Shown here one piece after another: positions 4,001-23,459 of a stretch of 64,000 nt of DNA. The position numbers were made by a program, and so were the translations under genes. Origin of the DNA: Granulicella sp. L56 (GTDB lineage: Bacteria > Acidobacteriota > Terriglobia > Terriglobales > Acidobacteriaceae); NCBI RefSeq assembly GCF_009765835.1, contig NZ_LMUS01000008.1, positions 27,998 through 91,997 on the forward strand. Reading direction: 5' to 3'. Position 1 is the first letter of the stretch. Each line of letters starts with the position of its first letter. The notes beneath the pieces were generated by a model. The model was given only the letters and a program-made list of their open reading frames with translations. It did not search any database and had not been told where the DNA came from.

Positions 4001-4421
4001 GTTGCAGCGTCACATCCACGCGCGTCACGCCGTCCACGGTCACCACGTTGCCGCTCGAAACCGTCGTCTGAAACCCGGCTGCGCTCGCCTCTATCTTATA
4101 GTTGCCCGGAGGCAGCAGGTTGGCGATGTACTCTCCGTGGCTGTCCGACGTGAGTTGGCTCACCACCCCCGTATCCTGGTTGGCGACGCTGACCTTCGCT
4201 CCTGGAACCAGCGCTCCAGTCGAGTCCTGAATGGTTCCCTGCAACCGTCCGCTGACACCCTGTCCAAACGACACCGCCGCAAACAGCAGCAAGCACGCCA
4301 CCGCCAGCACCGAACCGCGGAGCGGGAATCGCATAGATCGTGGGAGTTGCAAAACTTGCCGGATCTGTTCGCGCAGCCCGGGTCTACGGACCGCCTCATT
4401 GGCATTTATTGGGAATTGCAT
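1053..4421 (-). CDS. TonB-dependent receptor, Oar-like, with N-terminal carboxypeptidase-regulatory domain
   Basis: This 1122-residue outer-membrane receptor begins at an ATG preceded by a near-perfect AAGGAGG box four bases upstream, which fixes the start. An unusually long N-region of about 30 residues precedes the hydrophobic signal core (roughly 37-52, ending in FGQ). Next come a carboxypeptidase-regulatory-like beta-sandwich (about 57-140, with YANLLPPGNY-type features), a plug domain (about 150-260, containing GGTTYTLDGV and QVNAFVKSGTNQFHG) and a long beta-barrel ending in LGGRFTF. This architecture is strongly expanded in Acidobacteriota and is thought to take up oligosaccharides or other large ligands. 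The substrate cannot be read from the sequence. The glycosidase-like gene follows 88 bases downstream on the same strand. Confidence 0.9.
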   Translation of the reverse strand: MQFPINANEAVRRPGLREQIRQVLQLPRSMRFPLRGSVLAVACLLLFAAVSFGQGVSGRLQGTIQDSTGALVPGAKVSVANQDTGVVSQLTSDSHGEYIANLLPPGNYKIEASAAGFQTTVSSGNVVTVDGVTRVDVTLQLGSATQSVEVTGDNPLVNTSSSSMGEVLNTHAIVSLPLNGRVFSQLVQTVPGSVATGFGSAPEAAAGAGASGSITASVNGLPWGGTTYTLDGVSNMELLNAFINVTPALDSLQEVKVSTSNADATVGTYGGAQVNAFVKSGTNQFHGSAYEFFRSDSLNAIQWQALTKAPYRSNEFGGSLGGPIIRNKAFFFVDYQGLLLNNGIAYNLTVPTDLMKQGQFLTSQFPTLYDPSTGNPFPIVTTSQGSAYQVPASRFDPVAAKMVADASIWPEATNQNSISQNYKANTAETDNNHQFDAKADYQFGNGDRLFARESYQRRDLTAPSPGTRFIQIGDVNASSRDHNTAVGYDHTFSPKATNELRFGFNRFYTKDFGNDFGTNENTALGIPNGNDAAFAGASGMAIFDVGNIAPTGSQDWTNSHRITNVYQITDNFIRVFGKHTITVGEDYRRLQASLTNANASQNGSFSFNADYTSSCTGQPNCSNSVGGNAFASFLLGIPSSLYRGFVDTDPATRANLAGVYAQDEYHMSKSLTLNLALRWDVITQAIDKFNRQSNFNLSTGLLDIASNNNRAPNVDNYYGNYAPRVGFSYSPNNGRTAVRGAFGITTFPGNFGAIGGNLERNFPYFQQYYLNQQLAYTPFTQVSVQGLPAFIPLATTGPVTPQPNSSVTLIPRNFRPDNAYTWNLGIQQQLTPSTAFSLSYVGTRGINLYRDYNIDTPAPGPGDLTPRRPYYGIAPEVTSINYATSDGQSIYHAMQAELTKNFSHGLEGRVSYTWSKEIDDMNVFYPLHDNLNRAVGTSQAPNVPNNFIASFVYQLPFGHGRTWLANSSRPIDLLLGGWQVSSITMLQSGQPLSFGISNDNLNSGFSNRAELACPTIRKIGKTSEWFDTTCLTTPAQYQLGNSGVGKVLGPSYRNSDVSLSKTVRIREQMGASFQVDAFNLTNTPHYSNPNTTCCTAQNPSFGQITGTNGTPREIQLGGRFTF

Positions 4422-7316: not shown

Positions 7317-7460
7317 AGCTTCCTCTTCCACAGCAAGTGTATAAAATTTTAGAGTTCAGTTACGAGATGCGCGTTTATCGAGGACGAATCTGATAGCCGT
7401 TATTTGGACGGCTTTACCGGACCCCTTGTTGAACTGATAGGCGCAGCCTTGCTTCGAAGT

Positions 7461-7567
7461 CGGCTGCTGGGAAGTTGCAGTCACTCCCGGGGGACGGTCA
7501 ATCTGGAAACTTCCCCACTAACCGAGTTTTCAGGGCAACAGCTAATCAGGGTCCAGAAAGTATTGCG
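7461..7567. repeat. 107-base repeat, copy 1 (outside island)
   Basis: It aligns without gaps over 107 positions with 16601-16707; I count 17 mismatches by eye, about 84 percent identity. In the second copy the right end encodes the last codons of an XRE regulator on the minus strand (PQYFLDPD-stop), and those codons are intact here too. Copy 1 is therefore the 3' stump of a second XRE gene plus its 3' flank. Confidence 0.8.
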
Positions 7568-7728: not shown

Positions 7729-7749
7729 TTGGTTGCCCCCGGGGATTCA
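7729..7749. other. Left attachment site of genomic island (tRNA-Gln 3'-end copy)
   Basis: TTGGTTGCCCCC followed by GGGGATTC reproduces the 3' end and T-arm of tRNA-Gln (20271-20292) in the same orientation, differing by one indel and one substitution. Tyrosine-recombinase islands that enter a tRNA 3' end leave such a displaced fragment at the distal end. Two octamers of the type found beside the integrase gene lie 45-65 bases further inside. Together these mark the left boundary of the island. Confidence 0.75.
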
Positions 7750-7790
7750 TGTCTACTGAAAATAAAAGGGATATAGCTATTTCTGTGCAA

Positions 7791-7812
7791 AATACCCGGA
7801 TCAATACCCGCA
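7791..7812 (+). other. Integrase arm-type sites, left end (candidate)
   Basis: AATACCCGGA and AATACCCGCA are direct repeats 12 bases apart. The core octamer TACCCGCA also occurs at 20093-20100 (inverted), 20108-20115 and 20130-20137, beside the integrase start at the other island end. Short repeats inside both ends of an island are the expected layout for arm-type binding sites of P4-like integrases. Function is inferred. Confidence 0.6.
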
Positions 7813-7918
7813 AAAATTTAATCTTGTGGAGAACTTTCTGATTCGATCTCCACATGTTTTTGGGAGTTACATTGCACATCGCAAAGCAAGATTTGTCTTA
7901 AGGGCGGCACATCGAATA

Positions 7919-8365
7919 TTAGAACAGCCGGGAGTCGAAAGGGTGCTCATACATCGCAATAATCTTCAGAAGGTTAACTTCGACGTGTTGCGGGTTGACC
8001 AGTACGTTCCATGTTTCCGGTACAAGCACGCTTGGCACTTGCAACAGCAAGGAACGCTTTTCAGAGAGCCAACGGTCTCCAATCGCTTGCGTAGCGTTAA
8101 TATCCTCGGCCCAATTCGGAGATAACGAATCGGCTTCAACCTTTTCGATGGATAACGACTCAGGCCCTTCAATCCTCAATACCTGGATACGCTCAGGTCG
8201 ATCCTCAGAATCGATCTCGATATGGACGAGTGTTTCGAGCAGAGCCGTCGCAGGATTCAGAGTGCAATAGACGACCGGATGGCCTTTTGTGTGCCAGCGC
8301 CCGGACACATACAGGCCGCCTACTCCATCCAAGCTCTGGTAATTGCTGACTCGCCACAGGATCAT
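7919..8365 (-). CDS. RES-domain toxin
   Basis: A protein of 148 residues from the ATG at 8365; an in-frame TTG at 8386 overlapping the upstream gene is possible. It contains the RES-family signature: an N-terminal LWRV, GGLYVSGRWHTKG with the conserved Arg, VVYCTLNPATALLE with the conserved Tyr and Glu, then LVH. RES toxins degrade or phosphorolyse NAD+ and arrest growth (known for Mycobacterium MbcT and Pseudomonas and Sinorhizobium homologues). The Xre/MbcA/ParS-type antitoxin is encoded directly upstream, with its stop at 8376, so the two are translationally coupled. This is the first cargo module inside the left end of the tRNA-Gln island and probably stabilises it. Confidence 0.85.
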   Translation of the reverse strand: MILWRVSNYQSLDGVGGLYVSGRWHTKGHPVVYCTLNPATALLETLVHIEIDSEDRPERIQVLRIEGPESLSIEKVEADSLSPNWAEDINATQAIGDRWLSEKRSLLLQVPSVLVPETWNVLVNPQHVEVNLLKIIAMYEHPFDSRLF

Positions 8366-8375
8366 AGAACGATAC

Positions 8376-8831
8376 TCACGCGGCAAATCCGTAATCGAGT
8401 TGTAGGAGCATCTCTTCTACCAGCCGTGCTCCTGCTTCTGTGCGCAGCATCTCTAGCGGGCTGCGCCCCTCAAAACGAGACTTCTCCTTGCGTAGCCAGC
8501 GCGCAGCCTTGGCGTCGTCACCGAAGACCTCTTCGGCCAGGGAGGTGATGCGAGCGATCCGAACGGCGCGGTCGGATTCATCGTGGGTCAGAGACTCACG
8601 GCGGGTTTTCCGATGAACCAAGGTCCGGCGTGGAACGATGAAGCTGTAGATTTCTTCATCGCTCATCCCATGATGGGAAAGCGACTCAACCGAAGCGAGA
8701 GGAAGACGTTCATCCACCAAACGGGCAAGATCACGGTCAGAACGCAGCGACGTGACTCCGAGCTTCACCTCAATGCGGCGATAAAACATCGCCGGTTCCC
8801 GCTTTTCACGAACTTCGGCAGTTTGGGCCAT
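8376..8831 (-). CDS. Antitoxin of RES system, Xre/MbcA/ParS family
   Basis: A protein of 151 residues. It has the antitoxin architecture: an Xre-like helical N-terminal part (SLRSDRDLARLVDERLPLASVESL), then the C-terminal toxin-binding module with FGDDAKAARWLRKEK and SPLEMLRTEAGARLVEEML, the hallmark of the Xre/MbcA/ParS toxin-binding domain. It neutralises the RES enzyme encoded next and probably represses the promoter upstream of 8831. The gene order antitoxin-toxin is standard for this family. Confidence 0.85.
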   Translation of the reverse strand: MAQTAEVREKREPAMFYRRIEVKLGVTSLRSDRDLARLVDERLPLASVESLSHHGMSDEEIYSFIVPRRTLVHRKTRRESLTHDESDRAVRIARITSLAEEVFGDDAKAARWLRKEKSRFEGRSPLEMLRTEAGARLVEEMLLQLDYGFAA

Positions 8832-8921
8832 CGCGCCCTCCCAGGCAATCTGCCACGATTATATGGGCACATTGCTCAAACCGCAACCGGGTCGGATCAC
8901 TCACGAGAAGAGCGTTTCTCG

Positions 8922-9494
8922 TTACCTATTTAGCGTGTTGTAGTCCGTCGGCACTTGCGCAGCAGGAGCGTAGGTCAAGCGAATCACGTCTTCGGCGATT
9001 AGTTCGTTCGCAACTAAGCGGAGCGACGGCAGAGGGCCCGAGAAGAACGGCTTGCCGCTACCAAGCACGACAGGGTGCAGGTAGAGTCGATATTCATCAA
9101 TGAGACCAAGGTCGGTGAGGGCTCCAGCCAAGTCCGGGCCCCCGGCTTCAATTTCCCCAACGAGCTGTGCCTTCAGTCCTCGTATCAACGCGTCGATGTC
9201 ATCGGCGACAAGAGTTGCATTGGGCCCGACCGACTTCAACGAGCGCGACACAACCCACTTTGATTGACTGCGCCATGCAGCCGCGTATTCATGTTCTTCC
9301 GCGCCCCAGTTTGCATGGTCTTCATCCCAATAACGCATGATCTGGTACATGCGGCGACCGTACACCATGCCCGAAAGTCCGCGCACATCCTCGATGAAGT
9401 GACGAAAGAGCGCGGGGCGAGGTACAAATTTCTTGTGGTCGTGGTCGACATAGCCGTCCAGCGACTGGTTCAATGCATAGACGAGTTTTGCCAA
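8922..9494 (-). CDS. Dihydrofolate-reductase-like protein (RibD C-terminal family)
   Basis: About 190 residues of the RibD_C/DHFR-like fold: an N-terminal strand KLVYALNQSLDGYVDH, the central GMVYGRRMYQIM segment, an IEAGGPDLAGAL nucleotide-binding loop and a LHPVVLGSGKPFF motif near the C-terminus. These proteins are NADPH-dependent reductases of unassigned substrate and rarely replace FolA. I chose the TTG at 9494 because the GGAGG ribosome site lies eight bases before it; the longer frame would start inside that site. It lies within the island and is not obviously coupled to the neighbouring TA pair. Confidence 0.75.
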   Translation of the reverse strand: MAKLVYALNQSLDGYVDHDHKKFVPRPALFRHFIEDVRGLSGMVYGRRMYQIMRYWDEDHANWGAEEHEYAAAWRSQSKWVVSRSLKSVGPNATLVADDIDALIRGLKAQLVGEIEAGGPDLAGALTDLGLIDEYRLYLHPVVLGSGKPFFSGPLPSLRLVANELIAEDVIRLTYAPAAQVPTDYNTLNR

Positions 9495-10011
9495 GCTACA
9501 GACCTCCAAGCCAGATGTCAGAACACCTCTGAGGCGAGGTTACATAAAGGTGAAACTCGCCGCAATGTCTTTACCCGCTGATCGCTGACGCTAAGCGTGT
9601 TTCCCGATACCTATCCGGCGCACGAACGGTCCGAGGCGGGTCGAAACTTCCCGTAACGGCGTTTCCTGACGGTGGTCTTCTGCGATACCGATCCTGGTGG
9701 CCGAGGGATCGGTGAATGCAGCAATATTGGCGCACGGCTCCTTTAGTGCCCTGAGACACTCTTTGAAGCCCTTATTGTGGCCTTTTCTTGAACTGACGAC
9801 TTCTGCCGTGCAGACGTCTGCTCAAGTGGGAATCGAAGCCGAAGCTGCGTCGTGAGGCAGGACGATTGTCCACGTGTCGAACAGTCTCAGAGACAATTCT
9901 GGCATCTCACTAATGCGGGTTGGACGATTTCAACTCACATTGCGTCCTTCCCTCAGTTTTGATCGGCCCCCAGAGCAAGGTGCCTCCCGGGGTGATGGGG
10001 CTGGAAGATGA
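9495..10011. other. Intergenic region between DHFR-like gene and sensor kinase
   Basis: About 500 bases that presumably hold divergent promoters for the reductase (leftward) and the kinase-regulator pair (rightward). Short open frames here have no recognisable similarity. I find no repeat or RNA gene. Confidence 0.4.
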
Positions 10012-12405
10012 TTGCAAGGCCGCGATGGCCTAGAGGTGAATTTGCAAGACCAGATCTCAATAGACTTGGCGCGCAGTCGCATTATCGGCATCGGAGAGAT
10101 GGCGGATTTAGTACGACAGTACGACTGGAGTTCAACCTCGATTGGACCAGTCGAATCTTGGTCCAGAGAACTCGTCACTATTATCAATCTCACCTTGGCA
10201 TCTTCATCGCCCGCAAGAACGATGTGGGGAACCGACTTAATTTTGATTTATAACGACGCTTACCGTCCCTTTCCGGGCCCGCGCCATCCGTACGCACTTG
10301 GAAAATCTGCTCGCGAAGTTTATCGCGAATCTTGGCATATAGTGGGGCCAATGCTGGAGGAAGCTCTCGCCACTGGACAAACCGTTTTCCACGAAAAGCT
10401 CCTGGTTCCCCTCCCAACGGAATCTGGGCTAAGAGACGCGTATTTGAATTATGCTTTCAATCCGATTTTCGAGGACGGGCGAATTTGTGGGTTGTTCGGC
10501 TCGCTGCACGATGTCACAGGAGAAGTTGTGGCGGTTCGCAAGCTAGCAGAGAGCGAAGCGCGTGCGTCTCGCATTCTGCAAAGCATCGGGGACGCTGTGA
10601 TCGTCACAGACGAACAGGCGCTGATCACCGATATGAATCACGTTGCCGAGACCTTAACCGGCTGGACGTTAGACGATGCGCGAGGTCAGCTCCTTAGCAC
10701 CGTCTTTCACATTGTGGATGAGGAACAGCGTGAACTGGCCGAAAGCCCCGCAGACAAGGTTCGGCGCCTGGGTACCGTCATAGGTCTGGCCAATCACACG
10801 ATCTTGATCGGGAGAAGCGGAATCGAGACCGCGATCGATGACAGCGGAGCGCCGATCAGGGACAAAGATGGCAAGCTGACCGGGATTGTCTTGGTCTTCC
10901 GCGACATCACGGAAAGAAAGATGGCGGAAAGGACGCTAGCCGAAGGGCGAGCAAGGGCCTTTGAAGCTCTCCAGCAGGCTCCTGTCTTCTTTGCGCTTTT
11001 GCAAGGACCCGATCATGTGTTCACCATGGCGAACCCGCCCTACATGCGGTTAGTGAACAACCGCGAGGTCCTGAACAAACCCGTGAGAACCGCCCTACCT
11101 GAAGCTGTTGGGCAGGGCTATATTGAAATCCTCGATAAGGTTTTTCAGGGCGAGCCATTTGTGGGAAGCGGTCTTCGCTTTCAAGTGGACAATAGTGATG
11201 GCTTACCTCCAGATGAACACGTGATCGACTTCCTGTATCAACCATTGCGTGAAACTGACGGCAGTGTGTCAGGAATCATTGTGCTCGGGAATGATGTGAC
11301 GGTCAGAAAGACTGCCGAGGAAGCGATGCAGCGGCTTGCCGCGATTGTGGATTCTTCCGACGATGTGATCCTGAGTAAAGATCTGAACGGAATAATCACG
11401 AGTTGGAATGCGGCCGCAAGCCGCCTGTTCGGCTATACACCTAAGGAAATGATCGGCGAATCTATTCTCAAGCTAATTCCCGAGTCTCTACGATCAGAAG
11501 AAACAGAGTTTCTTGAAAGCGTTCGGGCCGGAAAGCATGTGGAACACTTCGATACAGTTCGTCTTACGAAAGATGGAAACCTTATTGAGGTATCCCTCAC
11601 AATTTCTCCCATCCGAGATGCCGACGGACGCGTCATTGGAGCCTCAAAAATCCTCCGCGACGTCTCCGACCGGAAACGCATCGAACGATCCCTGATTCAA
11701 GCGGAGAAGATTGCGGCTACCGGACGGATGGCAGCAACGATCGCTCACGAGATCAACAATCCCTTGGATGCAGTGGTGAATTTGCTATACCTGCTTCGTC
11801 CGATAATCCATGACCAAGATGGAATCACCTACCTCGCGATGGCGGAGGCCGAACTCGAACGTGTTTCTCATATCGCAAAGCAGACCCTCGGATACTACAG
11901 GGAAAACGCTGCGGCATCGAAGGCATCTCTTAGCGAAATTGCCAAGCACGCAGTTGCCGTCTACTCGCCTCGTTGCACTGCTGCGGGCATCACCATCTCT
12001 ACTTCATTCCGATCTTCACGATTGCTAACGCTGCGCCGCGGCGAGATGACGCAAGTGATATCAAACCTTATTGCAAATTCCATACACGCGATGCCGGATG
12101 GAGGCCATTTATCGCTCATTGTCGAGGACGCCGATCAGCCCGTGAGCGGAATAACACTCAAGATTTCTGACGATGGGGTAGGCATCGCTTCCGGCAACCT
12201 GCTCAAGGTCTTTGAAGCCTTTTTCACAACTCGTACTACCGTTGGCACAGGAATTGGATTGTTCGTCGCGAAGCAATTCATTGAAGGGCACGGCGGATTT
12301 ATCAGCGTTACGAGCCAAGTCAATGCGGAAAACCATGGCACAACGTTCTGCATATATTTGCCACTCCACACACCGTACGAGATTTCGGCTGACGCTCACG
12401 ACTAA
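10012..12405 (+). CDS. Multi-PAS sensor histidine kinase
   Basis: A cytoplasmic kinase of about 797 residues without membrane segments. Four PAS-type domains can be seen: the N-terminal one (GEMADLVRQYDW ... SLHDVTGE, roughly 30-180), one at about 185-305 ending in VFRDITERK, one at about 315-440 ending in GNDVTVRK, and one at about 445-560 ending in ILRDVSDRK. The HisKA box AATIAHEINNPLDA follows, with phosphorylatable His579, then a HATPase_c domain with N-box NLIANSIHAM, SDDGVGI and TGIGL. The start is uncertain: TTG 10012 and GTG 10036 are in frame, and ATG 10099 would remove a conserved upstream segment. A REC protein follows 12 bases downstream. The kinase core is closely similar to that of the nearby phytochrome, which suggests a shared pathway. 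Confidence 0.85.
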   Translation: MQGRDGLEVNLQDQISIDLARSRIIGIGEMADLVRQYDWSSTSIGPVESWSRELVTIINLTLASSSPARTMWGTDLILIYNDAYRPFPGPRHPYALGKSAREVYRESWHIVGPMLEEALATGQTVFHEKLLVPLPTESGLRDAYLNYAFNPIFEDGRICGLFGSLHDVTGEVVAVRKLAESEARASRILQSIGDAVIVTDEQALITDMNHVAETLTGWTLDDARGQLLSTVFHIVDEEQRELAESPADKVRRLGTVIGLANHTILIGRSGIETAIDDSGAPIRDKDGKLTGIVLVFRDITERKMAERTLAEGRARAFEALQQAPVFFALLQGPDHVFTMANPPYMRLVNNREVLNKPVRTALPEAVGQGYIEILDKVFQGEPFVGSGLRFQVDNSDGLPPDEHVIDFLYQPLRETDGSVSGIIVLGNDVTVRKTAEEAMQRLAAIVDSSDDVILSKDLNGIITSWNAAASRLFGYTPKEMIGESILKLIPESLRSEETEFLESVRAGKHVEHFDTVRLTKDGNLIEVSLTISPIRDADGRVIGASKILRDVSDRKRIERSLIQAEKIAATGRMAATIAHEINNPLDAVVNLLYLLRPIIHDQDGITYLAMAEAELERVSHIAKQTLGYYRENAAASKASLSEIAKHAVAVYSPRCTAAGITISTSFRSSRLLTLRRGEMTQVISNLIANSIHAMPDGGHLSLIVEDADQPVSGITLKISDDGVGIASGNLLKVFEAFFTTRTTVGTGIGLFVAKQFIEGHGGFISVTSQVNAENHGTTFCIYLPLHTPYEISADAHD

Positions 12406-12417
12406 GGACGAATTTAC

Positions 12418-13026
12418 ATGGCTGCCAATTCATTTCCATACCGTGTTCTCTTCGTTGAAGATGAACAGAGCCTGCGCGAAACAGGCGAGCTGCTTCTTAA
12501 ATCGAGGGGCTACGAAGTCCTTTGCGCCGAAGATGGCTTTGAGGGCTTGATCGCTCTTAAACGCTCTCTGCCAGACATCATCATCTCGGACCTGCGCATG
12601 CCAAACATGAACGGGTTCGAGTTCCTATCGGTCGTGAGACGGCGTTTCCCCGCCATACCGGTGATCGTAGTCTCCGGCGAATTCACAGGACTGAGTGTTC
12701 CTGAAAGCGTACTCGCGGATGCTTTTTTCCCTAAGGGGAACTACAAGCCCAATGACTTGTTCAGCAAGATCGCGGACCTACTTGAAGAACTGCCGACTCG
12801 TCCAAAACTCGGCAAACCGAGTAAAGCTGCTGTATGGGTCAAAAACGATAAAGGGACAATCGCCGTAACGTGTTCGGAATGTTTACGGACATTTCCAGTT
12901 CCCGACGCGTTGGCGGGTGTAAATGAGGTCGAATGTGACTTCTGCTCGTCCATGATCAGATTTGAGATTATCGGAGAGCCATTTGCTTCTGATGCAGCCC
13001 TGCCATTCGTACGGCGACCTGCCTGA
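12418..13026 (+). CDS. Response regulator with C-terminal zinc-ribbon-like domain
   Basis: A protein of 202 residues. Residues 1-122 form a receiver domain with acidic pocket Glu14/Asp15, phospho-acceptor Asp58 in ISDLRMPNMNG, and Lys106 in FFPKGNY. The C-terminal part has two Cys pairs, C152-x2-C155 and C173-x2-C176, spaced like a zinc ribbon. There is no helix-turn-helix or enzyme domain, so output may be protein-protein or nucleic-acid binding through the ribbon. An AGGA box precedes the ATG. It is the obvious partner of the PAS kinase just upstream and possibly also of the phytochrome kinase, which converges on it and has no receiver of its own nearby. Confidence 0.85.
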   Translation: MAANSFPYRVLFVEDEQSLRETGELLLKSRGYEVLCAEDGFEGLIALKRSLPDIIISDLRMPNMNGFEFLSVVRRRFPAIPVIVVSGEFTGLSVPESVLADAFFPKGNYKPNDLFSKIADLLEELPTRPKLGKPSKAAVWVKNDKGTIAVTCSECLRTFPVPDALAGVNEVECDFCSSMIRFEIIGEPFASDAALPFVRRPA

Positions 13027-13188
13027 GTTTTCGCTCGAACATCTTTCTTAAGCGACCTTTGGATCTTCTCCAAGACGATTTGAACGAACGAGGTCAGTAA
13101 CGTGCGGCCGACTCTCCGGTGCTAATTGGCAACATATGGCAGCAGGATGGTGAGGAGTCCAAGCTAGGCGTCAATGATTTGATTTTGG

Positions 13189-15783
13189 TCAATCTATGGA
13201 TGGATCGGGGTTTCTCGGCAACCGAACTCGAACTTCAGTCCCGATACCAACCTGACTTTTTATGATCAGATTTCCAGCGTGACGTTCCACAATCTCATAG
13301 GAGATGTAGAGGCCAAGGCCGTTGCCAAGGTCGCCTCTCGTGCTGTAGAACGGCTCGAAGAGGTGTCGTAACGCCTCGTCGTCCATGCCGTGCCCGTTAT
13401 CCCAGATTTTGATCTCCGACATGTCGCCATCCTCCCTGGCACTGAGCCTGATTTCACCCCCTACAACCACAGCCTGAATTGCATTCGCTATTAAATTTGC
13501 CAACACCTGCGATATCTGACCGATCGTGCCGTAAACGGGGACATTTTCTCCGCCTTCGATCAGAACATTGACCTCCCGGTTTTTTATCTTGCCAGCGAAG
13601 AGTTGCAGTATGTCTTTGAAAAAATACCCTGCGGTTCTAGACTGTGGTCTCTGGACACTTTCCTTCGACCAGCGAAGTGTCTGCTTTGTGATTCCCGAAA
13701 TTCTCTGCAGCTCACTCTCTGCCGATTCAATATAACCGCGAGCGGTTTCGTCTTCTTTGACTCGATTGTTCAAGAGGTACAGAAGGTTGATAATGGCCTC
13801 CAGCGGGTTGTTGATTTCGTGTGCGACGACGCTGGTCATTCTTCCTGTAAGGGCGAGTTTTTCTGTCATTCGCAGCGCCGCTTCGCGTTGTCGCCGATCG
13901 GTAAGATCGATGCAAGTGCCTGCCCAACCCGCTCTCTTACCATCGGCACGGAAGTATGGGATGGCACGAACCAGATTCCATCGGTCCGCATCATTGGATG
14001 GCGGGTGAAATCGCACTTCCAGCTCAAAGGGGATACCCTCTGTGACGGCGGCTGTCCAAAGCTTGCCGGAGCGGAGTTGGTCTTCTAGCAAAATACGTTC
14101 CTGCTCATACCAACGGCCCTGACTGGCAAAACCCTGTTCGATCCATTTCTGGTTCACAAAGGTGAGCTGACCATCATCATCTGACGTCCAGACGGGGTGA
14201 GGCAAGGCATTGGTTAATTGCAAAAATCGTGCCTCCCCGAGTTGCACGGCTTCTTCCGCACGTCTCAGGCTGATGGTCATGATCGCCCCGCGAAACTCTG
14301 TGGCCGATTCAACCTCAACTTCAGTCCAGGGCTTGCATCTGCCACGGACAAGCTCACTCCAGATTTCAAATGATTTTCTGGGGTTGAGTTTTTGACTCTT
14401 ATCTTCAGTCTTGCCAGGTTCACCAGCCCACCGCACCGTTCGTACTACCTCGGGCCGAAACCACATGAGGTAGCTCTGACGGACGTGAGAGATTCGAACT
14501 ACCAGCAGACCACTAGCAACCTCGCTGAATTCCGATGCCCAACCGATCTCGTTACTAAGACAGTGGCTCTCGAATACTTCGCAATCTGGCCTTCTGTCCA
14601 TCCACTCCGCCAGCCTTTTTAGATCGGAGCCCAAAGGGGTGATCCCGGATACCGTAAATTGCCCATCCATCACGAGCGCTGCACCTTCCGCGTCGGTGAT
14701 CTGGATCAAATCCCCCATCTGGTCCGCCATTGCTAGGAGGTAGTTATTCTCGGCAGCCATTTGGGTCAACATACGACGCTGTACTGCGTGGAAGTGCACC
14801 ATCTGATGCAAACTCGCTGAGGTTGCAAGGCTCGTCAACTGAGTGGCAACCAGCCGGGTCAGCAGATCGCACGCACTGCGCACCAGGTAAGGCACCGTGC
14901 GCGGTTTTTTGTGATGCCCGCTGATGAGTCCCCAGAGCTTTCCTTCGCAGATGATCGAGATCGACATAGAAGACATCGTCCCCATATTGCGCATGTACTC
15001 CAAATGAACGGGAGAGACACTCCGAAGGATCGACATGGAAAGGTCCAGTGACCCTAGCAGTCGTTTATTGAGCCCATGCAGGGGCGACGGAACATAACTT
15101 GCATCCGGAATGATCCGGACTGTATTGAGGACGTATAGGTCGCGGGCCTGTTGCGGAATATCCGAAGCTGGGAATCTGAGATCGAGATAGCTGGGAAGAG
15201 TTCCATCGTTTTGCTCACATAGAACGGTGCCGTGGCCAGCCTCATCGAAGCGATAAAGGAGAATGCGATTGAAACCAGTAAGCTCTCCTATCTGTTCTGT
15301 AATCGCCTGGCAAAGCTCTATTTCGGTGTGAAGGTTATTGAGCTTGCTGACAAAGTTTGTGAAGACCTGATTCGTCATCTCGGGGCTGGTGAGGCGGTCC
15401 GTAAGTTCGAATTCAAGGATACGTTCGCCGTTCACCCGATGGGTCACGATACTGAAGAACCGCCCCCGCATCTGAAACGAGCCCGGGTAGGTAAGGAGCC
15501 CTTTGTCACCGCTGGAGTGGATGACGGCGCTCAGAGCTCCAAGAATCTCGCGCTCGAAAATGGTTTCCAGCGGCGCACCAAGGATCAGTCCTAACGGAAC
15601 TTCGAGGAACTCTTCGGTGTTTTGACTCGCACCGACGACATGTTCATCGCGATCATCCAGCAGTAAAAGGAAGCCATGACGCTGAATACTACCCGGAATA
15701 CGGATTGGCTCGTCTGCGCAATTCTGCCCACTCCGACTGACGTTGTCGGGGATATTTATATCGCCTACAAGGCTAACTTCCAT
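13189..15783 (-). CDS. bphP: Bacteriophytochrome histidine kinase
   Basis: The start is taken at the ATG at 15783, which overlaps the end of the heme oxygenase gene by 11 bases and gives 864 residues; an upstream in-frame start at 15867 is less likely. The photosensory core is complete: PAS with biliverdin-binding Cys22 in NCADEPIRIPGSIQRHG, GAF with RFPASDIPQQARDLYV and the conserved His of WGLISGHH, and PHY with the tongue motif PRKSF. An additional PAS domain (about 510-630) precedes the kinase. His655 in VVAHEINNPLEA is the phosphorylation site, and the HATPase_c domain has WDNGHGMD and LGNGLGLYI. It should sense red/far-red light. With bphO it is a self-sufficient light sensor. It sits in the island beside a paralogous PAS kinase. 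Confidence 0.95.
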   Translation of the reverse strand: MEVSLVGDINIPDNVSRSGQNCADEPIRIPGSIQRHGFLLLLDDRDEHVVGASQNTEEFLEVPLGLILGAPLETIFEREILGALSAVIHSSGDKGLLTYPGSFQMRGRFFSIVTHRVNGERILEFELTDRLTSPEMTNQVFTNFVSKLNNLHTEIELCQAITEQIGELTGFNRILLYRFDEAGHGTVLCEQNDGTLPSYLDLRFPASDIPQQARDLYVLNTVRIIPDASYVPSPLHGLNKRLLGSLDLSMSILRSVSPVHLEYMRNMGTMSSMSISIICEGKLWGLISGHHKKPRTVPYLVRSACDLLTRLVATQLTSLATSASLHQMVHFHAVQRRMLTQMAAENNYLLAMADQMGDLIQITDAEGAALVMDGQFTVSGITPLGSDLKRLAEWMDRRPDCEVFESHCLSNEIGWASEFSEVASGLLVVRISHVRQSYLMWFRPEVVRTVRWAGEPGKTEDKSQKLNPRKSFEIWSELVRGRCKPWTEVEVESATEFRGAIMTISLRRAEEAVQLGEARFLQLTNALPHPVWTSDDDGQLTFVNQKWIEQGFASQGRWYEQERILLEDQLRSGKLWTAAVTEGIPFELEVRFHPPSNDADRWNLVRAIPYFRADGKRAGWAGTCIDLTDRRQREAALRMTEKLALTGRMTSVVAHEINNPLEAIINLLYLLNNRVKEDETARGYIESAESELQRISGITKQTLRWSKESVQRPQSRTAGYFFKDILQLFAGKIKNREVNVLIEGGENVPVYGTIGQISQVLANLIANAIQAVVVGGEIRLSAREDGDMSEIKIWDNGHGMDDEALRHLFEPFYSTRGDLGNGLGLYISYEIVERHAGNLIIKSQVGIGTEVRVRLPRNPDPSID

Positions 15784-16366
15784 CCACGGCCGATTTCCTC
15801 TGCATCCATGTTCCGAAAGTACTAAACATTGCTTTGGCAGAGGCCACCACGGCGTCTGTTTGTTCATCTGGAATTCGCAGCTTCAACATTTCACAGAACT
15901 CCTTCCACAATGGCCCGGTCTGACTGCCGCGACCGCGAAAATACGAACTTCCCTGACCTTCGCTGAGATGAAGTGCTGTTTCGACGTGGCGAGCAATGAA
16001 TTGTCCGCCCAGGGTCGATCCTTCCATGACATACATGGTCCCGAAAAGCCCAGGGAGATCATTCATCTCCGGTAGCGCAGGACGCCGGTCATCTTTTTCA
16101 ACTACCCCGAACCATGCCAGGTCTAGTTCTAGGAGAGGACGTCTCCGTCGGGCGCGGACTGCCGGCTGGAGCCATTCAGGGGCAATCTCAGCAGCTCGCT
16201 CTTCCCAGGCGACGACTACTCCGTATATACGTTGGAGACACTGAACATACTCTGCTACGTTGAGCCCTTGATGCATCAGCGGAACGGTACCCTCCACCTT
16301 GCGATGGTCGACTTCAGTCTCCTGTCTCAATATCTGCATGTCCAAGTCGCGGCGCTCCTCGAACAC
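15773..16366 (-). CDS. bphO: Biliverdin-producing heme oxygenase
   Basis: A BphO-type heme oxygenase of about 190-197 residues. The proximal heme ligand is the His in ETEVDHRKVEG near the N-terminus. The distal-helix region reads GLFGTMYVMEGSTLGGQFIARHV, matching the glycine-rich helix of bacterial heme oxygenases. It opens heme to biliverdin, the chromophore of the phytochrome encoded immediately downstream, with which it overlaps by 11 bases. The start is not certain: GTG 16366, TTG 16345 and ATG 16339 are in frame, and a GAGGAG box is best spaced for TTG 16345. Confidence 0.93.
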   Translation of the reverse strand: MFEERRDLDMQILRQETEVDHRKVEGTVPLMHQGLNVAEYVQCLQRIYGVVVAWEERAAEIAPEWLQPAVRARRRRPLLELDLAWFGVVEKDDRRPALPEMNDLPGLFGTMYVMEGSTLGGQFIARHVETALHLSEGQGSSYFRGRGSQTGPLWKEFCEMLKLRIPDEQTDAVVASAKAMFSTFGTWMQRKSAVDGS

Positions 16367-16600
16367 AATTTTGAGAATGTACTGGTGAAGCCAGTTATAC
16401 GCTTTTTTACCTTCAGAGACCCGAAAAGCTCAGTTCGACAGCATTTCGCGAGGCAATCCACTACCTCTTGCCCTGGTGAGAGTCGGAAACTTGAACCGAT
16501 TCGGGCAAATCAGTAACGGACAATCTTCTTGTCGCGAGAAACTCTTGGATTGACGCGAAATCGCCGAGTGACTCATCGCACCGGATTAGTACCGATATGT

Positions 16601-16707
16601 CGGCTTCTGGGAAGTTGCGGTCACGTCTGGAGTACGGTCAACCCGGAAACTGATCCACTACCCGGGTTTCCCGGGCAACAGTTAATCAGGGTCCAGAAAG
16701 TATTGCG
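16601..16707. repeat. 107-base repeat, copy 2 (inside island)
   Basis: Gap-free match to 7461-7567 (about 84 percent by eye). Its right end overlaps the last codons of the XRE gene on the minus strand, so the conserved unit is an XRE 3' end plus about 80 bases of 3' flank. The remaining bases between 16367 and 16600 hold nothing I recognise. Confidence 0.8.
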
Positions 16708-16948
16708 GAGGCTTCGCATATATCTGAGCAAGTTGAATGAGTTCAAAGACTTCGATGCTGCGCTCGCCCGTCTCGCATTTCGAGAGAAACGAATGCGCCC
16801 TTTCCATGCGTGCAGAGACTTCCCGCTGCGTTAGGCCCGCTTCTTCGCGGGCCGAGATCAGCTTTTCGATAAGTCTGTCGTAAAGAACCTGATGATGCGT
16901 TGTCCTCCCCTTGCGGGAGACTCGTGTCTCAGGCTTCTTCTTCGTCAC
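16682..16948 (-). CDS. XRE-family transcriptional regulator
   Basis: A small DNA-binding protein of 88 residues. An N-terminal basic tail (MTKKKPETRVSRKGR) is followed by a Cro/CI helix-turn-helix (residues about 25-80: REEAGLTQREVSARMERAHSFLSKCETG, then ERSIEVFELIQLAQ). It has no effector domain. It is transcribed toward the phytochrome operon. A short inverted repeat upstream (16978-16991) lies between it and a divergent frameshifted small gene and is a candidate autoregulatory operator. A stump of a second copy of its 3' end lies at 7461-7567. Confidence 0.85.
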   Translation of the reverse strand: MTKKKPETRVSRKGRTTHHQVLYDRLIEKLISAREEAGLTQREVSARMERAHSFLSKCETGERSIEVFELIQLAQIYAKPPQYFLDPD

Positions 16949-16977
16949 CCTTCAAGTGTGGTAAATGCTTGACGAAT

Positions 16978-16991
16978 CCCCTAATAAGGGG
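16978..16991. promoter_or_regulatory. Inverted repeat, candidate operator of XRE regulator
   Basis: CCCCT-AATA-AGGGG is a perfect 5-base inverted repeat, 30 bases upstream of the XRE start and 40 bases upstream of the divergent GTG at 17031. Position and symmetry suit an autoregulated Cro-like repressor. Binding is inferred. Confidence 0.4.
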
Positions 16992-17030
16992 CAATCTGGC
17001 TGTCATCGAATGCCTTTAAGGGAGGTAGAT

Positions 17031-17165
17031 GTGCCGAGAGATTATTTGGAATGTGCCGAGGTCGTGGGCAAAACGATCAAGGCGCTCAGATATACAAGGA
17101 CGATGTAGACGGATGCGAAACTCTTATTGAATTCACGGACGGCACATTCATCTCCAGTTCCGTCT
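17031..17165 (+). pseudogene. Frameshifted small gene divergent from XRE regulator
   Basis: A GTG at 17031 follows an excellent ribosome site (GGGAGGT). It reads PRDYLECAEVVGKTIKALR for 20 codons, then soon hits a stop at 17106. In the adjacent frame the text continues naturally as IYKDDVDGCETLIEFTDG and on to about 17165, consistent with loss of one base near 17092. The intact protein would be a short acidic protein. Beyond 17165 the sequence runs into the antisense of the decayed TonB receptor. I do not recognise a family. Confidence 0.5.
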
Positions 17166-17199
17166 CCCACCAATCTTCCGTCAAGGGGACCTTATTCAA

Positions 17200-18634
17200 G
17201 GGCGGCGTTAGGACTCCCCAGGAATTATTGTTCGCATCGAGCAACGGAGCACTTCCGCCTCCGAAAACAAATGCTCCGTTGAAAGTGTCCGGAACATAAT
17301 CGTGTACGAAGATACCAAGGGCCTGAAGGCCAAATTTTATTTCGTGTTTGCCGTAAAAGACCATTACCTCGTCATCGACTTCAAGATCGCGTTCGCGGTC
17401 ATTCAGGTTCTGGCTGGTCGAGCCGCGCCGGTAAAATAGCCTGCCACTTGAAGTGACGGTGCAGTGGATAGAGGCATCTGCTGAGTTTGCTTCCAAGAAT
17501 AGCCGATTCGAGTCTCATCCAGAGTATTTGGGTTGATCGTAAGTGTGTTGTGCAAGCGCAGATCATACTCGCTCGCTAAGCTGTCATATCCGGCGTCCGC
17601 AAGCATAAGGCCGCCGATGCCCTGGTTGCCGAGGTTGTTGACGTTAGAGGAAAACGATAGTGTCGCAAGATCTTTCGCCGTTACTTGCCAGTCACTACGG
17701 GCAGAAGCGATCCAAAGTCGCTGAGGGGCTTCAACCGACTGATTCACGGGTACTTGGTTTCCGTTTGCATCCAGTGACACCGCTTTGACGACATTAAACT
17801 CGTCGATATCGCGCTTTTCGAGTGCGAGAGAGGAGTCTAGTTTCTTAGGAACGACTGGCCCGCTCAGCTCAAAGCCATAGCGACGTTTACCCGCTGGTGT
17901 TGCGGTCACAGAAAACGGATCGGTCGCGTTAAGGCTGCTGTCGCTATCGGTTAAGAAGAGCGCTCCATGAAATCTGTCCGCCCCGGTCTTCGTGGTGATC
18001 TCGATCCGGCCTCCGTTCCACGCAGGGTTCTGGTATTCGGGCGCAAAGATGTCGGGGTTGACGCGGATCGAAGCAATGGAGCTTTTGGGCGGCATGGCGC
18101 TGGCATTTTGAAACCCGTCCACCACAATCACGGCTGAACTTGGATCGCCGCCCGAACTTGCAGCAAGCACCTGTAATTCTCGCAACAAATCATCTGGGTC
18201 ATCAGGCAATCGCCCGACATCGTCTGCATTCAGAATTGTCGTACCCGGGCCATGATCGGAGTACAACCCTGTCGCGTCCGAGCCGACCGTTATATCGGTT
18301 TCTACATGCGCAATTGCCAATTGGAGATTGAGATGTGCAACTCCTCCAGTCATGTCTTCCAGACATAAGCCGTGCTTGCGGAAAATCCTTCAGCCCGTAC
18401 TGAAATCGCAGCCGAAGCTGGTGAAACGCACGGCAGCAGATAATGGCCGGAGTCATCGGTCGTGGCCTTCTCGCCACCACTTGCCTGCACCAGCGCACCG
18501 GAAATTACTGCTCCGGTCGGGTCCGTGACGTTGCCTTCGACCCGAACGCCATTGGAACACGTCTGCTGGGCCGCCGCCAAAGAAGCGATCGGCACTACAA
18601 CCAATACAGTTATCCAGAGCCACCTTGTATTCAT
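17200..18634 (-). pseudogene. TonB-dependent receptor, frameshifted and truncated
   Basis: Three consecutive minus-strand frames together form the N-terminal part of an Oar-like receptor. Frame 1 (18634 to about 18350) has a signal peptide MNTRWLWITVLVVV and a carboxypeptidase-regulatory domain (VRVEGNVTDPTGAVISGALV). Frame 2 (18353 to 17403) has a plug with AVIVVDGFQN and IEITTKTGADRFHGALF. Frame 3 (about 17430 to 17210) continues the barrel with SQNLNDRERDLEVDDEV. The first break is at an ATGA overlap near 18350, the second near 17425. The remaining several hundred barrel residues are missing; the similarity ends near 17210. It cannot make a receptor and marks decay of the right part of the island. 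Confidence 0.8.
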
Positions 18635-19171
18635 AACCCGTCTGTCTCCTGATCCGAAAATCGCAGAGACTTTGGGCAATATCCAACAGTTTGCAACGAA
18701 GGCAGTGATTTAGGCGGGGAGCAGCTCCTTTTCTGCGATGAATCCTGATCCCCGTGGATGGTCCTCGACACGCCGCTCGTCTGGTGTGCGGCCTTTCGCG
18801 CCGATGAAGCGTATGGAAGCTGTCCGATACTTTCAGACGGCAAGTTGCAGTGTTCGTAGCAGGAAATGGGGGCTTCGTTGCATAGTTCTCGTCCGCACAC
18901 GCAACACATGGCAACTTCTTGACAGGCAATACCAATGGTCGAGCGCGGAGGCCGAACCGGTGCCAACAGATAACTCTAGTCAGCCAAATCGTCTTCTACT
19001 ACGCGTTCATGTGTGCATTCATTGCGCCAATCCATTCCGCAGAGAAGAAGTCGAAGGACGGGTGCATACAACAGTGCTTTTCTCTGTTCGAAATGCGAAG
19101 TGGAAGGGCCGTTGAATATCGAGATTCGTGAAGTAGACGATGATGATCTCAGATATTGAAGGCCGAATGAA
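18635..19171. other. Region between TonB pseudogene and LysR fragment
   Basis: About 540 bases with several short overlapping open frames on both strands, none with recognisable domains or ribosome sites. It probably contains the former promoter of the receptor, with the remainder degenerate sequence. No tRNA or repeat seen. Confidence 0.4.
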
Positions 19172-19693
19172 TCACATGGCGAGCGGAAGTTTTCCCTGAG
19201 CCGTTCGACCGATAACTCCGAACTTCCTACCGGCGGCTTTGACGAACTCATTCACTAGCCGGGATTTGGTATCCTCTCGCATCGCAAGACTTGTGACGAG
19301 ACGAAGACGGGGTTCAGCCAAAGGCCTCATCGTAATGCCGTCACGAGCAATTCTCCATGCCGCCGAGCGCGGCAAAAGCGCAAGTCCGTGATGCTCGCGG
19401 ATCAGTTCAGAGGCTTCTTCGGGGCTGGTGAAGTGGTAGATGTCCGATGGATATGCACCTCTTTCCGCGCCGACAGATTGAATGGTGTCGTACAGATCGG
19501 GGTTTGGGTGCTTCCCGAGCACCATCCAGTTTCGCTTGTGCATCTGCTCCAGGCGAACGTCTCTGTATGCCGACAATTCATCCGCCATCGGCATTGCAAT
19601 GTAAAAGGGCTTGTCCGCAATGTTCAGGACGCTAAGCTGTGGTTTTTGGGGGACACCGGTTATCACGGCAAGATCCAATGTGCCTGTACCGTG
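19172..19693 (-). pseudogene. LysR-type regulator, effector-binding half only
   Basis: The frame begins within the sequence GTLDLAVITGVPQ and covers about 170 residues of a periplasmic-binding-like LysR effector domain (strands VLNIADKPFYIAMP, EEASELIREHHGLALLP and MREDTKSRLVNEFVKAAG) with a natural stop. The N-terminal helix-turn-helix half is absent. At about 19693 the sequence changes abruptly to that of an integrase in another frame. This is the 3' half of a gene left by a deletion or recombination, without its own start signals. Confidence 0.8.
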
Positions 19694-20076
19694 TCGGCAT
19701 GGCGCGGAGACTTATCAACAGACCACCATGCCCACCATTTACGGGCAATCTTCTCAAAGCTGCTTTCAGCTTCCCGCTGCGGGTCGCCGATTTCTTTTTG
19801 CTTGGCCTGAGCCTCCGCCTTGCGCTCCGCCATGGGATCGACGCCAGCAGCCAATGTCTTTCGAGCGGCGAAATGCAGCTCGCGGGCGTCTTTAAGCGAG
19901 ACGAGTGGGTATTCGCCAAACGCCATCATCTTTTCTTTGCCCTCGAAGTAGTAGCGCCAGCGCCATAGCTTCGTACCGGATGGAGGAATCAGCAAGCAAA
20001 GGCCGCCGCCATCGGTCATTTTGTACGGTTTGCCAGCAGGCTTCGCGTTCTCAATCTCCCGGATCGTGAGTGCCAT
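19694..20076 (-). pseudogene. Tyrosine-recombinase integrase, N-terminal fragment
   Basis: From the ATG at 20076 the product starts MALTIREIENAKPAGKPYK and contains the arm-DNA-binding domain of P4-type integrases (DUF4102): MTDGGGLCLLIPPSG, LWRWRYYFEGKEKMMAFGEYP, SLKDAREL. It then enters the core-binding region (ARKWWAWWSVDKSPRHADTV). At about 19694 it is cut and joined to a LysR fragment. The whole catalytic domain with the Arg-His-Arg-Tyr residues is missing. The 3' end of tRNA-Gln lies 196 bases upstream on the same strand, the usual position of such an integrase, so the island at 7.73-20.29 kb was inserted by this enzyme but can no longer excise by it. Confidence 0.85.
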
Positions 20077-20090
20077 CATGAGCCTCCAAT

Positions 20091-20137
20091 ATTGCGGGTA
20101 CATTCGATACCCGCAATTTGTACTCACTATACCCGCA
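20091..20137. other. Integrase arm-type sites, right end (candidate)
   Basis: TGCGGGTA at 20093-20100 forms an inverted repeat with TACCCGCA at 20108-20115 (10-base arms, 7-base spacer). A third copy, TACCCGCA, is at 20130-20137. The same octamer lies just inside the left end (7805-7812). The cluster is between the integrase start and the tRNA, as expected for arm sites, and may also serve autoregulation of the integrase promoter. Confidence 0.6.
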
Positions 20138-20271
20138 TCCGTACCGCAAGAAAGTCAGGCTTCCGCCGAACCGTATCGCACCTCTGCGAACGTTAAATTT
20201 CCGCAAGTTGGACAAAACAAAACGCTCCGAGAGTTCGGAGCGGTTCAGGGCAGTTCGGGGAAGTATTGGAT

Positions 20272-20345
20272 TGGTTGCCCCCCAGGGATTCGAACCCCGA
20301 TTGGCCGAGTCAGAGTCGGCAGTCCTACCATTGAACGAGGGGGCA
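20272..20345 (-). tRNA. tRNA-Gln (anticodon CTG)
   Basis: The reverse strand folds into a complete cloverleaf of 74 bases including an encoded CCA: acceptor TGCCCCC paired with GGGGGCA, D-arm GTTC/GGAC with GGTAGG, anticodon stem GCCGA/TCGGC with loop CTCTGAC (anticodon CTG at 20313-20311), and T-loop TTCGAAT. U1-A72 is typical of tRNA-Gln. Its 3' end is the right-hand attachment site of the island; the displaced copy is at 7729-7749. Confidence 0.95.
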
Positions 20346-23202: not shown

Positions 23203-23274
23203 CTTGTTAATGTAAATGCTGTGTGACTTTGTGTGACAAACGCCAAACCGCCTGCTGCCTGTCAGCCACACATG

Positions 23275-23367
23275 CACGTCATCTCGACCGGAAGTGCGGG
23301 GTCCCCGACGAGCTTGCTCGTTGGGGTGCAAGCGTAGCGCAGTGGAGAGACCCTGTACCTGTATTTG
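23275..23367 (+). repeat. Dispersed repeat family A, complete copy with insert
   Basis: Starts CACGTCATCTCGACCGGAAG and ends GTGGAGAGACCCTGTACCTG then TATTTGCC. The middle holds a longer G/C-rich insert with an inverted part (GACGAGCTTGCTCGT). It lies between the kinase and the divergent hemD. Confidence 0.85.
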
Positions 23368-23459
23368 CCTTTGTTTTCTTTTACCCAACCTGCCCGGCTA
23401 CAGCTTTAAACCGCCTCTCAGACGCCTCGCCATCTTTCCCAACTACAATCGCTGAACAG

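Follow-up and report, generated by a model that had tools for sequence, protein, structure and literature searches.

A bacteriophytochrome and heme oxygenase gene pair on a decayed tRNA-Gln element of Granulicella sp. L56

A 64,000-nucleotide stretch of the genome of Granulicella sp. L56 (contig NZ_LMUS01000008.1, positions 27,998 to 91,997 of the forward strand; hereafter the window) contains, in close proximity, a gene for a bacteriophytochrome (bphP), a heme oxygenase gene (bphO), a multi-PAS histidine kinase, and a receiver protein. The initial annotation of this locus, made from the DNA alone, described the four genes as a light-sensing module carried on an island and suggested that one phosphorelay connects them. 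The locus raises the question of which of these genes have moved as a unit and whether the sensor that they encode is still intact. We find that the light sensor in the window is real, intact, and horizontally acquired. As a whole, the locus is best explained, with a probability of roughly four in five, as a tRNA-Gln element that carries an independent, transferable bphO-bphP pair together with a separate PAS kinase/receiver pair. The sequence itself shows the gene content, the ends of the element, sites with and without an insert, the conflict between the trees, and the constraint. Throughout, genomes are designated by G-numbers (G000 is the genome of the window) and loci by L-numbers.

The sensor pair and the element around it

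The bphP gene (13189 to 15783, minus strand) encodes an 864-residue protein with the architecture PAS-GAF-PHY-PAS-HisKA-HATPase_c and a chromophore Cys22, and bphO (15773 to 16366, minus strand) encodes a 197-residue heme oxygenase predicted to supply biliverdin. The open reading frame of bphP runs from 13189 to 15867 on the minus strand (892 residues) and contains ATG codons at 15867 and 15783, the latter of which gives the 864-residue protein. We placed the start at 15783 because 8 of 19 bphO-bphP pairs examined retain an ATG at this distance from the bphO stop (G000, G002, G063, G009, G045, G067a, G263, and G283; G055 and G067b, in which bphO is remote or interrupted, were left out) and because this start yields both the Cys22 numbering and an overlap of exactly 11 bases between the two genes, as initially described. 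In BphP, Pfam recognizes PAS_2-GAF-PHY-PAS_4-HisKA-HATPase_c, with PAS_2, GAF, PHY, HisKA, and HATPase_c above cut-off. Since the PHY match has an E-value of 1.1e-49, its assignment is not a matter of chance. BphO matches Heme_oxygenase (PF01126) with 56.1 bits versus a cut-off of 23.

Cys22, PASDIP, the GAF residue His260, His290, PRKSF, and HEINNPL can all be read directly in BphP, in agreement with the initial annotation, which had listed the chromophore Cys, PASDIP, the GAF His, and PRKSF as kept. Moreover, residues C22, D208, I209, P210, H260, H290, P468, R469, S471, F472, and the predicted phospho-acceptor H655 are invariant in 12 copies from the genus. The 21 copies whose surroundings were read, referred to below as main-type loci, comprise 12 of the genus and nine of the family. 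The genus copies G070, G077b, and G005, with a core identity of 30 to 35% to the window BphP, were excluded from this count and from the trees; the copies of G266, G152, G329, G338, and G096 (39-47% identical) were included in the trees and stand outside the count. BphP residues 20 to 511 align with solved bacteriophytochrome structures (best E-value 7.7e-108), the motif residues being aligned with structure 6bap, and pa-HO (1sk7, E-value 8e-05) was the sole solved relative found for BphO. BphP scores below the cut-off of the NCBIfam BphP equivalog NF041576 (301.8 versus 1040 bits), which we take to model one subgroup, with membership in the wider family resting on other criteria. The ratio of nonsynonymous to synonymous substitution rates (dN/dS) of bphO and bphP versus G063 and G002 is 0.13 to 0.16, indicating purifying selection; silent sites are near or at saturation in the pairs with G045 and G009. 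Based on the alignment of the core with solved structures, the invariant motifs, and the dN/dS values, we conclude that the sensor is intact and constrained.

All four signaling genes lie within 12.5 kb (7730 to 20271) that we interpret as a decayed integrative element. One attachment site is the 3' end of a tRNA-Gln gene (CTG; 20272 to 20345, minus strand), and a degenerate copy of this 3' end at 7730 to 7749 (minus strand) represents the distal attachment site. Searches for tRNA ends and arm-type sites covered 92 kb of the contig, in which the 21-nt tRNA-Gln 3' end has one further match within three edits (7730-7749, same strand); none of 60 random 92-kb sequences contained such a match. The DNA just outside 7730-7749 aligns over ~120 bp with the sequence next to tRNA-Gln in the sister genome G023, with a score of 88 as compared to a mean of 36.7 and a maximum of 56 in 200 single-base shuffles. 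In the same test the element side scored 35 and G001 scored 34, which is chance level. The homology of G023 and G001 to the window contig begins at the tRNA end (position 20271), and in G001 the left flank and tRNA-Gln are 128 bp apart where the window contig has 22.5 kb; both relatives present an unoccupied site. In addition, the sequence TGCGGGTAT, a candidate integrase arm-type site, occurs four times in the 92 kb, and three of these copies lie just inside the element ends, one near the left end (7804 to 7812, minus strand) and two near the right end (20107 and 20129, within 20107 to 20137, minus strand). The boundaries of the element follow from the tRNA-end copy, the G023 flank match, and these inner TGCGGGTAT sites. 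The GC content of the element is 53.2%, compared with 58.8% for the rest of the window, and is below that of all 109 other overlapping 12.5-kb segments examined (minimum 54.2%). The island that had been proposed to carry the module can accordingly be delimited as a tRNA-Gln-bounded element of low GC content.

The integrase of the element is a remnant (19663 to 20079, minus strand) in which a domain scan detects the N-terminal Arm-DNA-bind_3 alone, the catalytic domain being gone, and its reading frame ends where it joins a LysR fragment (19172 to 19678, minus strand) that retains part of the substrate-binding domain only. We call the element decayed because its integrase is reduced to the Arm domain. 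An outer-membrane receptor (OMP_b-brl_4; 17086 to 18353, minus strand) is also in pieces. The initial impression of an intact sensor beside broken integrase, receptor, and LysR genes is borne out by these Pfam fragments as compared with the intact frames of bphO and bphP.

Further genes on the minus strand of the element encode a helix-turn-helix regulator upstream of bphO (16682 to 16948), a RibD_C (dihydrofolate-reductase-like) protein (8922 to 9509), and, at the inner left end, a RES toxin/Xre-MbcA-ParS antitoxin pair (7919 to 8831). A 109-bp direct repeat (7459-7567 and 16599-16707, 84%), of which a whole-genome search found these two copies only, was considered as the element ends and dropped, as one copy is outside the left attachment site. 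The repeat spans the last codons of the helix-turn-helix gene and the sequence after it, one of its copies lying within the element and the other immediately beyond it, and is perhaps the trace of an earlier related element at tRNA-Gln. Short dispersed repeats were seen at window positions ~23263-23376, with many match rows in G001, and at L022 5237-5410, with dozens of match rows in G045, G046, and G014. Relative to G001, an extra ~10 kb extends from the conserved left flank to position 7730 and includes an intact outer-membrane receptor (1053-4421); it was either inserted separately in G000 or lost from G001. The left flank is interrupted, left of the window, by a short run of N, so that its continuity there rests on the assembly. 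A plasmid collection held no near match to the element, and the 121 plasmid records that match BphP at E <1e-40 are all less than 60% identical, none of them covering 80% of the query.

Transfer of bphO-bphP among relatives

The sensor is patchily distributed. PHY was found in 13 of 62 genomes of the genus (15 copies) and BphO in 12 of the 62, all of them PHY-positive; the genome with PHY only, G005, has a divergent PHY protein. Among the 30 genomes compared by rpoB (the G016 sequence being partial), the two closest to G000 are G023 (98.4%) and G001 (97.6%), both of which are without PHY. In a class-wide draw, a photosensory-core relative (E up to 1e-30) was present in 29 of 399 genomes, 20 of them in family f1, where some of the copies are not of the main type. 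At the main-type loci, bphO adjoins bphP in 20 of 21 cases and is interrupted in one of those (G067b), and the bphO matches of G077 and G049 contain stops. In G055, a bphO gene (48% identical) is located on another contig than bphP (L072; G055:C4:208181), which indicates that the pair can separate.

The BphP tree (26 rows, LG+G4) and the rpoB tree (29 rows, LG+G4) are in conflict. G263, which belongs to another genus, is nested among the BphP copies of the genus, and G002 and G045 are 99.1% alike in rpoB versus 69% in BphP, with their copies at different loci. With the BphP data, the approximately unbiased (AU) test rejects a single clade of the genus copies that leaves out G263 (p 2e-5), G002+G045+G049 (p 2e-38), and G002+G045 (p 2e-4); with the rpoB data, it rejects G000+G063+G002 (p 2e-72) and the same group with G263 (p 3e-58). 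The comparison of BphP with the host tree, which the initial annotation had proposed as a check, therefore revealed conflict, and the patchy presence of PHY, the tree conflict, and the element ends support its suggestion that the sensor was acquired horizontally.

The extent of DNA homology indicates what was transferred. Homology to the G063, G002, and G263 loci stops at 13213-13216 and at 16358-16458, so that the DNA homologous to these loci within window positions 1-20400 is confined to the two genes and no more than 92 bp upstream of bphO. Matches to the other 17 loci also fall inside bphOP, except for short kinase-motif matches at 11702-11798 in three of them. The sequences on either side of the G002 copy are separated by 23 bp in G000, forming a closed site, and other genes are found there in G014 and G063. 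Because the homology ends at the edges of the pair and the G002 site is closed in G000, the transferred, mobile unit is the bphO-bphP pair rather than the four-gene module. As for other neighbors, a protein that is KaiC-like by eye and a PAS histidine kinase adjoin bphOP at L074 (G049, 12879-16063) and L070 (G067b, 9783-12808); between the two genomes the KaiC-like proteins are 72% and the PAS histidine kinases 60% alike, and the arrangements differ.

The neighboring PAS kinase and receiver

The multi-PAS histidine kinase (10012 to 12405, plus strand; 797 residues from a TTG start) is a separate two-component sensor, in which Pfam recognizes PAS_4, PAS, and HATPase_c, with HisKA slightly below cut-off (25 versus 26.9 bits). 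The receiver protein (12418 to 13026, plus strand; 202 residues, Pfam Response_reg) starts 12 bp after the kinase on the same strand and is tail to tail with bphP. For the placement and convergence of the four genes, the open reading frames and Pfam agree with the initial description. Given this 12-bp spacing on one strand, the natural partner of the receiver is the PAS kinase. PAS kinase relatives (E <1e-80) occur in 7 of 25 genomes including G000, and receiver homologs (70-73%) occur in 3 of 25 (G015, G009, and G007), at other places; the ~1.5-kb flanks of these receivers contain no PAS-kinase match above 45% and no BphO match. The closest PAS kinase relative in the 25 genomes (G002:C10, L078 8854-11554; 80% and 72% over two parts) is frame-split with a stop and looks like a pseudogene. 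By eye, the C-terminal CxxC...CxxC stretch of the receiver is zinc-ribbon-like, and it is kept in the G015 and G009 relatives.

It had been suggested that the kinase cores of BphP and the PAS kinase are close enough to indicate one phosphorelay. When 23 of the 61 candidates of G000 were scored against BphP, the window PAS kinase ranked 8th among the non-self matches by kinase core, with seven scoring better. In the dimerization and histidine phosphotransfer (DHp) domain, its identity to BphP of 36/71 is third among ten G000 kinases (16-38/71; two are higher). Because other G000 kinases are closer to BphP in both core and DHp, we see no evidence for one relay and rejected the similarity of the cores as a sign of it. 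The four-gene travelling module was rejected as well, since the PAS kinase and receiver adjoin bphOP in none of the 20 other main-type loci, three of which were read from contigs of less than 17 kb (4.2 kb in one case). BphP more likely acts on a partner in trans.

Proposed explanation and comparison with known systems

We propose that a 12.5-kb tyrosine-integrase-type element integrated at the 3' end of tRNA-Gln(CTG) and decayed thereafter, its integrase, LysR, and receptor genes becoming broken and its signaling cargo staying intact. On this element, bphO-bphP would be a self-contained pair that has been transferred repeatedly. BphO would open heme to biliverdin, BphP would bind biliverdin at Cys22, and red/far-red light would switch its PAS-linked histidine kinase. 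Together, the PAS kinase and receiver would be a second, independent two-component pair whose convergence on bphP is probably happenstance, and BphP would most likely phosphorylate a response regulator in trans. The photochemistry, kinase activity, partner, and output of BphP are what we infer.

A number of observations weigh against this explanation. The left attachment copy is imperfect (two substitutions and one deletion), and the second attachment site was missed by an exact 14-mer search with the tRNA end and detected once indels were allowed. The closed site in G001 differs over 22.5 kb, not 12.5 kb, ~10 kb more having been gained or lost, and, in the 39 kb compared, G023 has nothing of the left flank beyond ~120 bp outside the left end. 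The groups subjected to AU tests were all named after the identity tables or trees were known, the species tree is that of rpoB alone, and both trees were computed under the simpler LG+G4 model. One phmmer search found no similar integrase near the other 20 copies. At L249, L251, L252, and L255 (G376, G190, G227, and G318 of another genus, g16), bphOP lies ~1 kb or less from tRNA-Pro(GGG), which makes this a second location of the pair next to a tRNA gene. Flanking genes are common to G190/G227 and to G283/G269, two ABC-transporter genes on one side are common to G011/G077a, and three neighbors in a different arrangement are common to G049/G067b. Inheritance at such loci may be vertical, and the pair seems to be stable in places or to have moved along with its neighbors. 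Finally, receivers of another family adjoin bphOP in G016, G049, and G067b and are found further off within the stretch read in G045 and G077a, which means that some copies do have a linked receiver.

These shared sites bear on the idea that bphOP is ancestral in the family, was inherited vertically with many losses and rearrangements, and only looks mobile. Photosensory-core relatives do occur family-wide, the g16 copies have the tRNA-Pro site in common, and a few other pairs of copies share neighbors. In the initial annotation, a stable non-island locus in relatives was to count against mobility; there is no single common locus, and it is at some copies only that the site or neighbors are shared. 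The tree conflict (AU p 2e-4 to 2e-72), the nested G263 copy, the contrast between rpoB and BphP in G002 and G045, the element ends, and the lower GC content already strongly disfavor vertical inheritance, which we regard as very improbable. We consider it less remote, though unlikely, that the receiver at 12418-13026 takes phosphate from both BphP and the PAS kinase and that the four genes form a light-plus-second-signal module. Such a relay would fit their adjacency and convergence on one element, the presence of HEINNPL and NLLYLL in both DHp domains, and the other-family receivers that adjoin bphOP elsewhere. It is at odds with the absence of these partners from the other main-type loci, with the receiver homologs that have neither a PAS-kinase nor a BphO match in their flanks, and with a DHp identity that does not exceed that of other G000 kinases (up to 38/71). 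Slightly less probable than such a relay is that the sensor is a passenger heading for decay like the broken integrase, LysR, and receptor genes around it, a fate to which the interrupted bphO of G067b and the stops in the G077 and G049 matches might point. The four reading frames are intact, and the dN/dS of 0.13-0.16 for bphO and bphP speaks against decay, albeit as an average over branches to other species that would accommodate a very recent relaxation.

The tRNA-Gln element with its transferable pair can be extended to a more general proposal, which we put forward tentatively and at rather less than even odds. In the Acidobacteriaceae, bphO-bphP might be a portable, output-agnostic light-input cassette of ~3.2 kb that is partnerless, lands at new loci, and is plugged into the receiver network of its host; the DHp would then be conserved above the ATP domain because it docks to a family-wide host receiver. 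In eight other copies, identity to the window BphP is 48-70/71 in the DHp helix and 55-93/119 in the ATP domain. These soil bacteria are not known to be phototrophs, and Pfam recognized a photosynthesis protein in none of the 20 window proteins scanned (no genome-wide search for such genes was made). Among the matches listed in searches of the literature on phytochromes (in one case the best 15 of 160), which did not extend to most subscription journals, none reports bphO-bphP in Acidobacteriaceae in its title or the opening of its abstract, and the one match tied to Edaphobacter or Acidobacteriaceae contains the word phytochrome in its reference list alone. At this locus, the movement of a light sensor among soil bacteria can be followed on an element with defined ends and unoccupied sites, and related species with and without the sensor at different loci form a comparison set. 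The question whether a sensor kinase can be of use when it has no dedicated response regulator thereby becomes testable, as does the role of red light in soil Acidobacteriota.

Classical bphO-bphP operons of the kinase type occur in Deinococcus and Pseudomonas. Like these, the window has a heme oxygenase and a PAS-GAF-PHY histidine kinase, encoded by overlapping genes on one strand; unlike these, its BphP has an extra PAS domain between PHY and HisKA, no conserved cognate receiver adjoins the pair, and its BphP falls far short of the NF041576 cut-off (301.8 versus 1040 bits). Integrative elements with P4-type integrases are found at tRNA 3' ends, and the element described here resembles them in its Arm-domain integrase beside a tRNA 3' end, its direct repeat of the tRNA end, and its candidate arm sites. 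It differs in that the integrase is without a catalytic domain and the element is therefore not self-mobile now. Photosynthesis islands can be tRNA-bounded (PMC7656271), and such clusters include BrBphP (PMC10569730). The element in the window is likewise tRNA-bounded and carries a phytochrome. The phytochrome of those islands regulates linked photosynthesis genes, whereas no photosynthesis protein is among the 20 window proteins examined by Pfam. In Acidobacteria, a table in PMC3174227 labels nine genes of a large genome as bacteriophytochrome. The initial annotation regarded light sensing as mobile cargo as notable; the mobile cargo is upheld in the window, but phytochromes as island cargo are already known in Bradyrhizobium. 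There, according to PMC3899966, BRADO1262 of strain ORS278 and a second phytochrome in ORS375 lie on horizontally acquired islands, which, like the element in the window, place a phytochrome gene on acquired DNA in some strains only. As the same paper describes, BRADO1262 binds phycocyanobilin and is accompanied by phycocyanobilin and gas-vesicle genes, whereas the window holds, in another phylum, a bphO-bphP pair with a predicted biliverdin site at Cys22.

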